From: a virus
IMG/VR virus record: IMGVR_UViG_3300033571_009404
Location: 186,001 to 250,000 of that record
Reading direction: 5' to 3' (one strand)
DNA: 64,000 nucleotides
Shown: in pieces, positions 4,432 through 57,755 of the stretch
Layout: the number at the start of each line of letters is the position of its first letter
How positions within the stretch are numbered: position 1 is the first letter of the stretch
Program-made: the position numbers and the translations under genes
Notes under the pieces: generated by a model
What the model saw: the letters and a program-made list of their open reading frames with translations, nothing else
Told to the model about the DNA's origin: nothing
Databases searched by the model: none

Positions 4432-6111
4432 ATGGCCAACGGAATTACCGGTCTTGACGGCAAATCGCCAGTCTACGAACCAGATCGGAAATGGTCGATC
4501 TGGGAATACAATGAGATCTACTTTGACGGTGGCAATGGGGATAAGAAGTACGTCCCCAATGTCAACGACCTAGTAGTCAACGTCGCTTTGCGCGAGTTCT
4601 GGTATGTTGTCAGTGTGGATGAAACTACACTGAACCCGACTCTGAAACCATGGTCGGCAATGCCCAGTACTGAACTCGACGATATCGACCTGCTCTTGGG
4701 TCCTGACCCGTCGTACTCGCGTGATACCTATCGTGCTTACATCAACACTGCTGTGCTGCCGTACTCGGTGGTGTTGGATGCACGTCTGTACATCAAGGCA
4801 CAAAACGCCACCAAGATCAAGGTCTTCTACAAGAACAAGACCACTGGTAACGAAGAAGTCATCTCGGCTTTCTACGACACCATGGGTAACTTGCTTGGAC
4901 AAGAAGTCCCTCTGGAACTGGTGGCCATGCCTAACGGTCAGAACTACTCGATCAAGCGTCCTCGTACCTTCTACACCAGCCGCAACATCCCATCGGGTGA
5001 AGTACTGACTGTGGTAGCTTACGACGATGAAGATCAGCCGTGCTCGAAGTCTGAAGTCATGGTTGAACAAACTGCAGCGATTCCGGCGCAGGACACTTCT
5101 CTGAAGTACATCCTCGGTATCTCGCTGGAGTCGCCGTTCCTGTCGGAGTCGGATCCATCTGTCATTGAAGTACCGATGAACGTACTGGTGAATAACCTGT
5201 CGTTAATTGGTGTGGTCAATTACAGTAACGGTGACAAACTGCGACTGCCGGTTGACGGTACGAAGTTCAGTATCGCAGGCATTCAAGACCAAGGCTATGT
5301 GGCTACAGTGATTGGTCAAGAATTCCCAATCGTACTGACCTACACTCTGTCTGAAGGTGAAGTCGCTTACGGTATGTCCGTGGGTGAGAACTACGCCTAT
5401 TCGGAAGAGTACAAGGGACGCACGGTAGCTACCGATGGTGTTTACACACCTAAGCTGTATTGCGCGCCTGTCTGGATCGATGAAGTCAACGGCTATCGTC
5501 TGGAGTGGTATCTGTACAACTTGGATCGCGACATTTCGATTCAAGTCACTCCTTACGTGCGTCTGTCGTCGGCTGGCAATAGCTTTAACCCGGTGGGTTA
5601 TGGTAGCCGTCAGACGTTGGTTGCTACGGTCAATCTGAAGGAAGTCAATGGTACCTACAAGGCCATGAACTTTGTTCAGACTGTTGACGTGACTCTTCTG
5701 GGACCTGGTACCCTGCGTACCACCAACTGGACGATCGGTTACTCGCCTAACCAGAACCCGCCATTCGGTCGTGAGAACTACGCTAGCGCGTCGCTCATTA
5801 ACCAGAATCTCTCGAAGGTCAAACTCGACATGGGTGAGACTGACGTGACGAACTGGTTGAACCGACTGTACTACGAATCGCTGCCGCTGTACGACCCGCT
5901 GCGTGAGATTAAGGCCCCGCTGCCTAACTTCTTCTCGCTTACGGTCAATGGTCAGGAAGAACCCTTCCCGATCGATCAGTGGAATTCGGAGTTACAGCTC
6001 AATGGTAGTTTGGTCAACAACGACACATTGATGATCAAGTTCTACAAGGAAATTGACCAGGGCCGTCTGGAACTGGCAATGTGTGGTGTGCCGATTTATC
6101 AGGCTGGCTAA
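4432..6111 (+). CDS. Virion structural protein, beta-rich
   Basis: A 559 aa protein starting at ATG 4432, 18 bases after the previous stop (ACTGGAGCAATT upstream supplies GGAG). The sequence is strongly beta-strand-like with repeated Thr/Val/Gly strands and Tyr/Asn loops, typical of tail fibre, baseplate or decoration proteins. It closes the structural run and is followed by a hairpin and then the terminase. Codon use leans to GC-rich codons, suggesting abundant synthesis late in infection. The exact role is not recognisable. Confidence 0.55.
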   Translation: MANGITGLDGKSPVYEPDRKWSIWEYNEIYFDGGNGDKKYVPNVNDLVVNVALREFWYVVSVDETTLNPTLKPWSAMPSTELDDIDLLLGPDPSYSRDTYRAYINTAVLPYSVVLDARLYIKAQNATKIKVFYKNKTTGNEEVISAFYDTMGNLLGQEVPLELVAMPNGQNYSIKRPRTFYTSRNIPSGEVLTVVAYDDEDQPCSKSEVMVEQTAAIPAQDTSLKYILGISLESPFLSESDPSVIEVPMNVLVNNLSLIGVVNYSNGDKLRLPVDGTKFSIAGIQDQGYVATVIGQEFPIVLTYTLSEGEVAYGMSVGENYAYSEEYKGRTVATDGVYTPKLYCAPVWIDEVNGYRLEWYLYNLDRDISIQVTPYVRLSSAGNSFNPVGYGSRQTLVATVNLKEVNGTYKAMNFVQTVDVTLLGPGTLRTTNWTIGYSPNQNPPFGRENYASASLINQNLSKVKLDMGETDVTNWLNRLYYESLPLYDPLREIKAPLPNFFSLTVNGQEEPFPIDQWNSELQLNGSLVNNDTLMIKFYKEIDQGRLELAMCGVPIYQAG

Positions 6112-54520: not shown

Positions 54521-54994
54521 TTAATACGGAGGAATCAAAGTGACTTTCAACGGCAGTGGATCCAAGTACTCATAGATCAAGCTTCGCACATCACTCCATT
54601 GGAATGGTTCACTTCCATTATTCTTCCCACGCTGACCCTTACCGCAGCCTAAGCCTGGAATGGCAATAGAAGTAATACCCATCTTCCCATAGTTGTCCGC
54701 CAGTCGTTCTAACCCATGATCAATTAAGCTCAGAGGGGATCTAACTTTCCAGTGGTTTTTCGTAGGGAAACAAAGTACTTTCTTGTCATCCTTGTGGTCA
54801 AACAAGAAAAGTCCATTGGAGCTAAACACACCAAATTGGCATGCGCGTTGATATGCTGGGTAGAGTCCATCAAACTTTTCTCTAAAAGCATACGCTAATC
54901 CATTACCCATCACACCCACTTTATTCACCGGGCATACCAGTGTTTGGCAGTCTACCTTGAAGATATCAAGCCTTTTGTCTTCAACGATAATCAT
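54521..54994 (-). CDS. Macro-domain protein (ADP-ribose binding/hydrolysing)
   Basis: A 157 aa protein made almost entirely of one macro domain. The first ADP-ribose loop is NKVGVMGNGLAYAFREKF (about residues 21-38), the catalytic/phosphate loop is IPGLGCGKGQ (about 111-120), close to the DarG/TARG1-like group, whose members remove ADP-ribose from DNA or protein. In phages it could undo host ADP-ribosylation defence or regulate phage-made modification. Its ATG overlaps the stop of the upstream reading frame (ATGA), so it is translated with the frameshift region before it. It ends at a tagged hairpin. Confidence 0.85.
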   Translation of the reverse strand: MIIVEDKRLDIFKVDCQTLVCPVNKVGVMGNGLAYAFREKFDGLYPAYQRACQFGVFSSNGLFLFDHKDDKKVLCFPTKNHWKVRSPLSLIDHGLERLADNYGKMGITSIAIPGLGCGKGQRGKNNGSEPFQWSDVRSLIYEYLDPLPLKVTLIPPY

Positions 54995-55527
54995 GTTGGT
55001 AAGAAATCAGTTGGAGAATCATTTTCTTTGGACTTATTCCCATTGGTCAAGTTACTTGCTTCAGCCGCCTTACGATTGATGTAAGACTTAGCCTCAAGGA
55101 TAAGCAGATCGTTTAGCCACTTCGGATTCTCCATAAACTCCATGAAGGAACAGTTAAGGTGCTGTCCCATGTTGTAGTTATAGAAAGTCCGAATACGTTC
55201 GGGCAGTCCGGAATAGTGCTCACAGTCTTCTGTCCAGTAAAACGCCGTTACACCCATTGGGTTGGGTGGTTTACCGTCGTCATTAATGGCCAGATTGTAC
55301 TTCTGGTCGTAAGCCTGATCCATGACCAGTCGTACTTCCACAGACGAGAACTGTAGTCGGTCACGATCATGGGAACGTAACTTCTTAAAGACGCCGTCAA
55401 GCATCTCTTGGAAGTCAGCCCAAGGCGTTTTGGTATAACCAAAACGCTGGTGACCGACGTGAGCTAACGTGTGCGGTGACTTTAGGGGCGGAGGCTGATC
55501 CGGCGGATTTTCTGCACGAGTAGGGTA
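54991..55527 (-). CDS. -1 frame extension of the upstream gene (178 aa)
   Basis: This frame runs without stop from the slippery heptamer at 55533-55527 to 54991, giving 178 residues joined to the 530 residues read before it. An internal ATG at 55404 has no ribosome site, so independent translation is unlikely. The sequence is protein-like: a Pro-rich linker (NPPDQPPPLKSPH), then a conserved-looking domain (TKTPWADFQEMLDGVFKKL, VTAFYWTEDCEHYSGLPER) and a charged C-terminus. No family is recognised. If the 7-T run is a sequencing error, it is simply the C-terminal part of one 708 aa gene. Confidence 0.65.
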   Translation of the reverse strand, partial: YPTRAENPPDQPPPLKSPHTLAHVGHQRFGYTKTPWADFQEMLDGVFKKLRSHDRDRLQFSSVEVRLVMDQAYDQKYNLAINDDGKPPNPMGVTAFYWTEDCEHYSGLPERIRTFYNYNMGQHLNCSFMEFMENPKWLNDLLILEAKSYINRKAAEASNLTNGNKSKENDSPTDFLPT

Positions 55528-57116
55528 AAAAAAGCTGCCAGCGGATCGATGGGGACCAGAATCGGGAAGCGACGGGACTTAGCCGTTTTCTCGATTTCAG
55601 ACTTATCGAATGCAGGAACCGCACAGATGACGAACGTAACATCATCGATGTATTCACGTACCTTAACAAAGTACGAATCGCGCATCTCATCGTCAGACGA
55701 CAGATCCGCTAACATCTCATCGATGGTTTCACGCTTGGTCACGGTTTCCTTAGGATCGTTAGGATCCTCCGAGATGGTGATCTTTTCCACCCAGTGACTG
55801 TACTGGCGCATGTTCGACGCTTGAGCTTGCAGAGAGATCCGTTGATTACGGGAATCATCACTGATGTCTTGCGAGAACGCTTCTTCCGTCATGGCAACAA
55901 TACCATTGACCCAGGCTTGACCGGCATTGAAGTAATCCTTCAGCGACGGGACTTGGAAGTGCAGCCACATCTTGCGATTTTCCGACAGACGCACGATGTT
56001 CTGGCGTTCGGTGAATTCGTTTTGATATGTGGTCAGCATCTCATCAGTCATGGAGCCTTGAGTACGCGAACTCATCATCTGGATTTGACGAGGAGTCAGT
56101 ACCGAGTTGTCCACCCACATGGTCTTGCGCAGATCAATCAGACCATCGATCAAGCTACGTTCCTTACCACCAGCGTCAAACAGAGGACGCACGTATTGGA
56201 AGCCCTTTTGCCAGTGCAGTGCAGCCAGTGCATTCACAATAGCGTACAGGTCAGGCTGTTTGATGTACTGTTCCAGACGAGCGGCAGTCGGATCCTTCAG
56301 CGTGGTTTCCAGCATGTGCTGCATAGCGAAGTTAAACACTTCTTGTGCATAGAACACAGAACTGTTGCCAAAGGCAATACCGTAGGTAGCACGACCGAAA
56401 CGAATCTTCGATGCATCGATACGGTTAAACAGATTGACGATGGCGCCATCACTAGGTGCGCGCAGTGCAATCCAGAGACCCGAATGCCACAGGGGAACGT
56501 ACAGAACGTGACCCATGCCCATTTGCGAACGCATGCGAATCAGTGCATGAGTGCCCGACAGTTGCGACAGACCTTCAGAGCCGATGTTAGGAGCCGAAGC
56601 CACCAGGATCTGACCCTTCTCATTGCGCACCACTTGACGGAACTTCGAGTTCTTCTTGGACAGACGTCGTCGGAAGAAACCACCACGCACTGCGGTGTTC
56701 TCATTACCTTCTTGAATAGCAGCTAGCCATTCAGATGACTTGTCGTCATCGTATTCCACGTTCGGCAGATGGCTGGTGTATTCGGCCACACGAGGAGCGG
56801 TGTCTGTGGGTAGTACCAGTGTTTCCTTATTGGGATCGTAGGTACCAGGATTATGGGACAGGATTGCCCCTTCCATTTCCACAGTCGTCGAGTCCAAATG
56901 CGGCGGCAGTTCGAAGTAAGTGATGCTGGGAGTGGCGGCCTGCTCATTGTCCAGATTGGACTGAGTTTGATCAGCAATCTCAGTAGCAGCTGGGGTTTCT
57001 TGTTGAGCAGGGGTGGCCTGGTCGGAACTGAGGTTCATGGTCAGTTCCGGTTCATCCGATGCCGGAGGAGTTGGTACAGGCAAACTGTCCAGCTCGTTAT
57101 TCACATTGTCGTCCAT
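55482..57116 (-). CDS. Virion/assembly-type protein with -1 frameshift site
   Basis: A 544 aa protein. The first 110 residues are Pro/Thr/Gln/Asp-rich and disordered; the rest is alpha/beta and helical with no membrane segment. AGAGAG precedes the ATG at 57116, 12 bases after the upstream stop. Close to its end the message contains T TTT TTT in the zero frame (55533-55527); the zero frame then adds only 14 residues, while the -1 frame is open for 178 codons. Tail assembly chaperones of many phages use this arrangement, though they are much shorter. Role inferred: virion or tail assembly. Confidence 0.65.
   Translation of the reverse strand: MDDNVNNELDSLPVPTPPASDEPELTMNLSSDQATPAQQETPAATEIADQTQSNLDNEQAATPSITYFELPPHLDSTTVEMEGAILSHNPGTYDPNKETLVLPTDTAPRVAEYTSHLPNVEYDDDKSSEWLAAIQEGNENTAVRGGFFRRRLSKKNSKFRQVVRNEKGQILVASAPNIGSEGLSQLSGTHALIRMRSQMGMGHVLYVPLWHSGLWIALRAPSDGAIVNLFNRIDASKIRFGRATYGIAFGNSSVFYAQEVFNFAMQHMLETTLKDPTAARLEQYIKQPDLYAIVNALAALHWQKGFQYVRPLFDAGGKERSLIDGLIDLRKTMWVDNSVLTPRQIQMMSSRTQGSMTDEMLTTYQNEFTERQNIVRLSENRKMWLHFQVPSLKDYFNAGQAWVNGIVAMTEEAFSQDISDDSRNQRISLQAQASNMRQYSHWVEKITISEDPNDPKETVTKRETIDEMLADLSSDDEMRDSYFVKVREYIDDVTFVICAVPAFDKSEIEKTAKSRRFPILVPIDPLAAFFTLLVQKIRRISLRP
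55527..55533 (-). promoter_or_regulatory. Slippery heptamer T TTT TTT, candidate -1 ribosomal frameshift
   Basis: On the minus strand, codons GCT TTT TTT ACC contain the X XXY YYZ heptamer in the correct phase. After slipping, the reading continues TAC CCT ACT and stays open to 54991. A downstream stimulatory structure was not identified. Confidence 0.6.
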
Positions 57117-57128
57117 TGTACTCTCTGA

Positions 57129-57755
57129 TTAGTGAATGGTTTTGGAATCGCCTTCGACGAAGGTGACGTCAGTCACAACTTCCGGATTGGCAGCTTGTTG
57201 TGCGTCATACGCAGCTTGTGCTTCTTCGTCATCCTTCTTCAGAACAGCTTCAGCAGCAGCCAGTGCTTCCGGATGTTGTTCAGCGATCTGCTTCATCTTG
57301 CCGATGAGGTTGCGTTCACCTTCTTCCAGAGCGATCAGGATCTCACGAGCGATCTTGTAGGTCGACTCTTCGTTCAGCACGGCGATCTTGGCGTACTGTT
57401 CCAGCAGACCGAATGCCCAGGTAACTTGCTGGATATCAGCATTGCCCGACAGATGCTTGTGTTGGTTGTAGACCTTGGCGATCTCGCCATTCAGGTGAAC
57501 GATGTCTTGAGCCAGCACGATCAGGTTGTTGCTGAAGGCTGCTGGATTGGTGACATGTGCCACGATGTTGGGATTCTCACGGCAACGATGGAGGATGCCT
57601 TCGTACTTGGCAACAGCAGCGATGATGTCATTGCGAGAATTCTTCAGATCATCGAACAGACTGTTGCCCGCTTTGGAATCTTTGGGCAAGACAATCTTAG
57701 ATTGCTTGTGCGCTTCGCCGCCTTTTTTCTTGGCGGTGGATTGTTTGGTAGACAT
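57129..57755 (-). CDS. Unrecognised 208 aa helical protein, first gene of its unit
   Basis: A 208 aa minus-strand protein with a basic N-terminus (STKQSTAKKKGGEAHKQSK) and long helices after it (EILIALEEGERNLIGKMKQIAEQ), then an Ala/Glu-rich end. It could form a coiled coil. ACGGAGAGACC precedes the ATG. It is followed after 12 bases by the frameshift gene and then the macro-domain gene, forming one unit. Biased codons suggest good expression. No family recognised. Confidence 0.6.
   Translation of the reverse strand: MSTKQSTAKKKGGEAHKQSKIVLPKDSKAGNSLFDDLKNSRNDIIAAVAKYEGILHRCRENPNIVAHVTNPAAFSNNLIVLAQDIVHLNGEIAKVYNQHKHLSGNADIQQVTWAFGLLEQYAKIAVLNEESTYKIAREILIALEEGERNLIGKMKQIAEQHPEALAAAEAVLKKDDEEAQAAYDAQQAANPEVVTDVTFVEGDSKTIH

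Follow-up and report, generated by a model that had tools for sequence, protein, structure and literature searches.

The window analyzed here is a 64-kb stretch of a jumbo-phage record of 310,114 bases (310 kb). On its minus strand, two reading frames meet at a run of T residues. The features of this region are as follows.

57129..57755, minus strand: upstream gene in the position of phiKZ gp78, 13 bases from the zero-frame ORF
55482..57116, minus strand: zero-frame ORF of 544 aa, homologue of phiKZ gp77, PhiPA3 gp074 and 201phi2-1 gp136 (PHROG 4585); predicted short product
55527..55533, minus strand: slippery heptamer T TTT TTT, in a phase that suits a -1 slip on two Phe codons
55482..55526, minus strand: zero-frame tail past the site, 14 residues (TLLVQKIRRISLRP) plus stop, which finishes the last helix of the modeled short form
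54991..55527, minus strand: -1 frame extension of 178 aa plus stop, homologue of phiKZ gp76.4, PhiPA3 gp073 and 201phi2-1 gp135 (PHROG 12109)
54521..54994, minus strand: downstream macro-domain gene (PF01661), whose start codon at 54994 lies in an ATGA overlap with the extension stop

The zero-frame codons GCT TTT TTT occupy positions 55535-55527 of the minus strand, with the heptamer T TTT TTT at 55533-55527; this is the sole T7 run on the minus strand of the window. The zero frame (57116-55482, 544 aa) stops 14 residues past the slippery site. The -1 frame runs for 178 codons (55527-54994, with its stop at 54993-54991), such that a slip would give a fusion of 708 aa. The original prediction, which read this arrangement as a programmed frameshift joining two ORFs, gave the coordinates exactly. 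It was also correct that no Shine-Dalgarno sequence is well placed for the internal ATG of the -1 frame at 55404 and that the macro-domain gene starts in the ATGA overlap. The macro-domain gene is probably context that lies outside the frameshift mechanism, and the upstream gene (57129..57755) is probably cotranscribed with the zero-frame ORF.

Profile comparisons place both halves in families of phiKZ-like phages. The zero-frame protein matches PHROG 4585, the phiKZ gp77 family, with an E value of 7.8e-108, and the -1 extension matches PHROG 12109 with an E value of 2e-12. A Pfam search gave no significant match for either half, and megablast against phages found no near relative of the window. 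A tblastn search with the zero-frame protein gave matches in 215 phage records. Searches with the extension alone (tblastn and single-sequence IMG/VR scans) found no extension relatives, because the extension family diverges fast, and its homologues were recovered via the loci of the first ORF. The neighbors in the window are RNA polymerase, helicase, macro-domain, and gp78/79/80-like genes, and the phiKZ gene order is kept: RNA polymerase part(s), helicase, extension, gp77 and gp78, followed on the other strand by gp79 and gp80. In phiKZ (gp77/gp76.4), PhiPA3, 201phi2-1, SPN3US, and others, both halves are homologous to those of the window, and the gene order and -1 site are alike. However, the annotated records that were read list the two halves as separate hypothetical genes and do not mention a frameshift. 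One related locus (L135, ~4482-4988) has a macro-domain-like ORF directly after the extension, as in the window, whereas other genes take this place in phiKZ and most relatives.

Conservation of the site was assessed in 124 homologous loci, comprising the window, 24 loci from phage records, and 99 from IMG/VR; removal of near-duplicates left 87. The zero-frame gene stops at an equivalent place across the 124 loci, with protein identity as low as ~17%. An in-phase TTT TTT, TTT TTC, or TTT TTG is present at the aligned position in 83 of the 87 non-redundant loci, and in these 83 the zero frame continues for 8-37 codons past the site. The -1 frame is open for 123-164 codons beyond the zero-frame stop in all 87 loci (median 148), as compared with median open lengths past the stop of 8 codons in the +1 frame and 15 in the zero frame. 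These data strongly support the programmed -1 frameshift that had been proposed. The original prediction named a one-base homopolymer error in a single 708 aa gene as the alternative, and suggested aligning homologues to see whether they form a continuous ORF or keep a slippery run; the alignment shows the run kept in 83/87 loci. Homopolymer runs are error-prone, and in one phage (RVTF4) the extension contains a one-base difference. However, the 124 loci were independently assembled and share the split. Because none of them is a single uninterrupted ORF (0/124), sequencing or assembly error is effectively excluded, and the probability that we would still assign to it is negligible.

Two loci at first seemed to depart from the shared arrangement. 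In RVTF4 (L011, 4213-4735), the one-base difference follows the FG motif of the extension and breaks it, but the extension goes on in another frame past this point; the break could stem from faulty sequencing, from mutation, or from a second shift. L135 seemed to differ because tblastn had set its start in a wrong frame; its real arrangement is the same as in the others.

The codons at the site are unlike those used elsewhere in these genes. T-TTT-TTN in phase occurs 68 times at the site and not once elsewhere in the 46,616 codons of the 87 non-redundant homologues. Phe-Phe pairs at the site begin with TTT in 82 of 82 cases (55 TTT TTT and 27 TTT TTC), whereas elsewhere in the same genes TTT comes first in 1 of 42 and TTC in 41 of 42. 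This bias, together with the confinement of the heptamer to the site, indicates selection on the nucleotides and not on the amino acids alone. The four non-canonical representatives all keep the open -1 frame; three belong to a marine clade and carry CTT TTT ATT, and the fourth carries TTT TCC. Members of the marine clade (L101-L104, L106, L108, and L109) have an open -1 extension with CTT TTT ATT as their sole site, and the shift may therefore depend there on a weaker slip of a single tRNA or on some other mechanism.

The same fusion product would also result if the RNA polymerase slipped on the T run during transcription, instead of the ribosome slipping during translation. T runs of 6-8, the unusual RNA polymerases of these phages, and the lack of a conserved stimulatory RNA are consistent with such slippage. 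With respect to the last point, neither stability calculations nor alifold gave convincing evidence of a conserved stimulatory RNA downstream of the site. The 65 nt that follow it show a slight excess of stability over control segments (z -0.58 vs -0.27, p 0.03), and a downstream stem is predicted in one of four clades. Near the site, no upstream Shine-Dalgarno-like stimulator was found in the homologues. These results also count against the proposed ribosomal frameshift. However, many homologues have just a T6 run, with a C after it or a G or A before it, and the marine clade has only CTT TTT ATT. Moreover, the site is in every case in the phase that a tandem tRNA slip requires. Polymerase slippage is possible for the longest T runs and unlikely at T6 or shorter, and we regard it as an improbable origin of the fusion.

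Translation of the extension was examined separately. Across the 87 loci, the extension is 149-180 aa long, and 59 of 59 aligned extensions match the single family PHROG 12109. Shared motifs include YP at the junction, HV..FG, Y..YGI, and a C-terminal Y...I....G.S..EFL.LPR region. The annotated records list two genes, and the stop-to-start distance is short in some phages (e.g., 201phi2-1), as might be expected of two separate, translationally coupled genes, for which the -1 phase would be a leftover and no fusion protein would arise. In 64 of the 87 loci, however, no ATG occurs between the slippery site and the FG motif, and conserved residues precede the first ATG. None of the 87 loci has, in the stretch from the site to the FG motif, a start codon with so much as a 4-base Shine-Dalgarno match, and in 80 of them 5-base matches are absent at start codons throughout the extension. 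The same tests applied to gp77 starts as a control gave a 4-base match in 18/25 and a 5-base match in 11/25. By these sequence measures, the extension has no plausible independent start. Separate translation is also disfavored because an independent start would not need the invariant -1 phase that is observed. Given this phase and the selection on the slippery codons, two coupled genes are a highly improbable reading. A programmed -1 frameshift at T TTT TTT that is real, deeply conserved, and present in nearly every phiKZ-like phage examined is, from these sequence comparisons, close to certain.

The frameshift would proceed by a tandem -1 slip of two tRNA-Phe on TTT TTY. One start would give two proteins, a short form of 544 aa and a long form of 708 aa, the latter presumably rarer. 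In the AlphaFold2 model of the zero-frame protein (pLDDT 83, pTM 0.83), the slip point falls inside the last helix (residues 525-542). The short form finishes this helix, whereas the long form leaves it at YP and adds the extension, which is modeled as mostly helical (pLDDT 79.5). The predicted outcome is an exchange of the end of the last helix for a 178-residue, mostly helical extension.

Fold comparisons suggest a function for these products. A search of the PDB with the predicted fold gave no match. In BFVD, Foldseek matched the zero-frame protein, outside the phiKZ family, to an entry named "Baseplate hub assembly protein, bacteriophage T4-like", with probability 1.0, an E value of 7.7e-4, and a TM score of 0.50 by target length. 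Noise-level matches (E ~7) were to two tail assembly chaperones and to Bacillus phage G Gp182. The fold search with the extension matched phiKZ-like ORFs only. The original prediction had proposed virion or assembly products. In the 201phi2-1 record, the head neighbors gp138 and gp139 are noted as "identified using mass spectrometry", and gp135, gp136, and gp137 are without such a note; to the extent of these record notes, this fits a non-virion role. Of the two possibilities, assembly is favored by the T4-like hub assembly fold match, and the virion part is not borne out. Both forms most likely act outside the virion as chaperones that assist assembly of the tail and baseplate hub. A set ratio of the two forms may recruit different tail parts, by analogy with lambda gpG/gpGT. 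We infer this chaperone role, the ratio, and the partners, and the frameshift itself is a result of comparative genomics.

A true -1 frameshift could instead supply products for head assembly or for packaging of the virion RNA polymerase. The gene adjoins the phiKZ gp79/gp80 genes, which encode a structural head protein and a part of the virion RNA polymerase, and not tail genes. However, gp79 and gp80 lie on the other strand, the structural match found is a baseplate hub assembly protein, and the logic of short and long frameshift products is typical of tail chaperones. A head or polymerase role is therefore unlikely, although it carries more weight than slippage by the polymerase, and a role in hub and tail assembly is preferred.

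T4 gp26 and gp51 both belong to PF12322. They are listed as chaperones of hub assembly, with gp51 absent from the final particle (PMC3004832). They resemble the zero-frame protein through its fold match to the T4-like hub assembly protein. T4 gp26 and many members of the phiKZ family also share two separated Cys pairs; gp26 ends in ..CP.CGKTH..FF.L, and in many phiKZ-family proteins the common part ends similarly in ..CP.CGK.H..FF.L. T4 gp51 continues for ~45 residues beyond the gp26 end and in this respect resembles a long form. On PHROG 150 (282 positions), gp26 aligns as far as position 235 and gp51 as far as 280, which indicates a C-terminal extension in gp51. In contrast to the single frameshifted gene of phiKZ-like phages, T4 has two separate genes and no frameshift, with gp26 of 208 aa and gp51 of 249 aa. 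At the profile level, the PF12322 model matched T4 itself, but 0 of 18 phiKZ-like or window records scored above its cut-off. Alignment of the fusion to T4 gp26/gp51 with hhalign matched the Cys motif alone, at low probability, and gave no significant profile match. Profile scores against gp26/gp51 exceeded all 60 column-shuffled nulls, but their probability is low and the scores depend on the Cys motif. The zero-frame protein probably works like a hub or tail assembly chaperone, and its putative relation to gp26/gp51 is one of fold.

Both Cys pairs are present in 61 of the 87 representatives and both are absent in 15, including the window's own clade. The joint loss is seen in the window (55485-57116, minus strand) and in 14 related loci (e.g., L001, L002, L060-L065, and L081). 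The two pairs probably form one zinc site, and a zinc ribbon has thus apparently been lost as a unit. As a separate observation, the match of PHROG 634 (121 positions, "baseplate hub assembly catalyst") to T4 gp51 (L026, 4480-5229) is confined to the C-terminal 100 residues; in some T4-like phages, this part may therefore be encoded by an ORF of its own or by a frameshifted one.

Tail assembly chaperones made by frameshifting are a familiar class; lambda gpG has ~140 aa. As in the lambda gpG/gpGT type, the -1 slippery site lies near the end of the first ORF and gives a short and a long product. Like lambda-type chaperones, the phiKZ-like products may be absent from the virion, to judge from the notes in the 201phi2-1 record. 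The two systems differ in other respects. The unease of the original prediction over size was justified: at 544 aa versus ~140 aa for gpG, the phiKZ-like first product is 2-4 times the size of known tail assembly chaperones. The phiKZ-like protein has no sequence relation to lambda-type chaperones, and the fold matches to them are at the level of noise. Unlike for lambda-type chaperones, no tape-measure gene stands beside the zero-frame ORF in the window. The SPN3US tape measure is gp239 (PMC5105663), distant from the homologue of the zero-frame gene in that phage, which is ~gp39 by numbering. The lambda type also includes gp181/gp182 of jumbo phage G, which are annotated as tail chaperonins with a frameshift (PMC8570332).

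Our analysis allows us to propose that a programmed -1 frameshift yields short and long hub-tail assembly chaperones, the body of which is related in fold to the gp26/gp51 family, and we consider this account as a whole to be likely. A broader proposal is more tentative and in our view probably goes too far. In it, an obligate -1 frameshift across phiKZ-type phages and wider relatives makes a giant hub/tail chaperone pair, T4 makes the same pair by duplication (gp26 short, gp51 long), and frameshifting and paralogy are interchangeable ways to solve a single assembly problem.

In the open-access literature searched (phiKZ, SPN3US, and PHIKZ077 frameshift; phiKZ tail assembly chaperone), no report of the slip site was found, and the paper on the PRFect tool does not mention phiKZ or jumbo phages. 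The site is thus unreported in the literature covered, whereas frameshifted chaperones as a class are already known. phiKZ-like phages are a model for nucleus-forming phages. The true product of a gene found throughout this lineage has apparently been missed, two "hypothetical" genes being one frameshifted gene. Gene 77 with its extension is a concrete candidate for the tail assembly chaperone of phiKZ-like phages, and it may link the lambda-type frameshift chaperones with the hub assembly proteins of T4.
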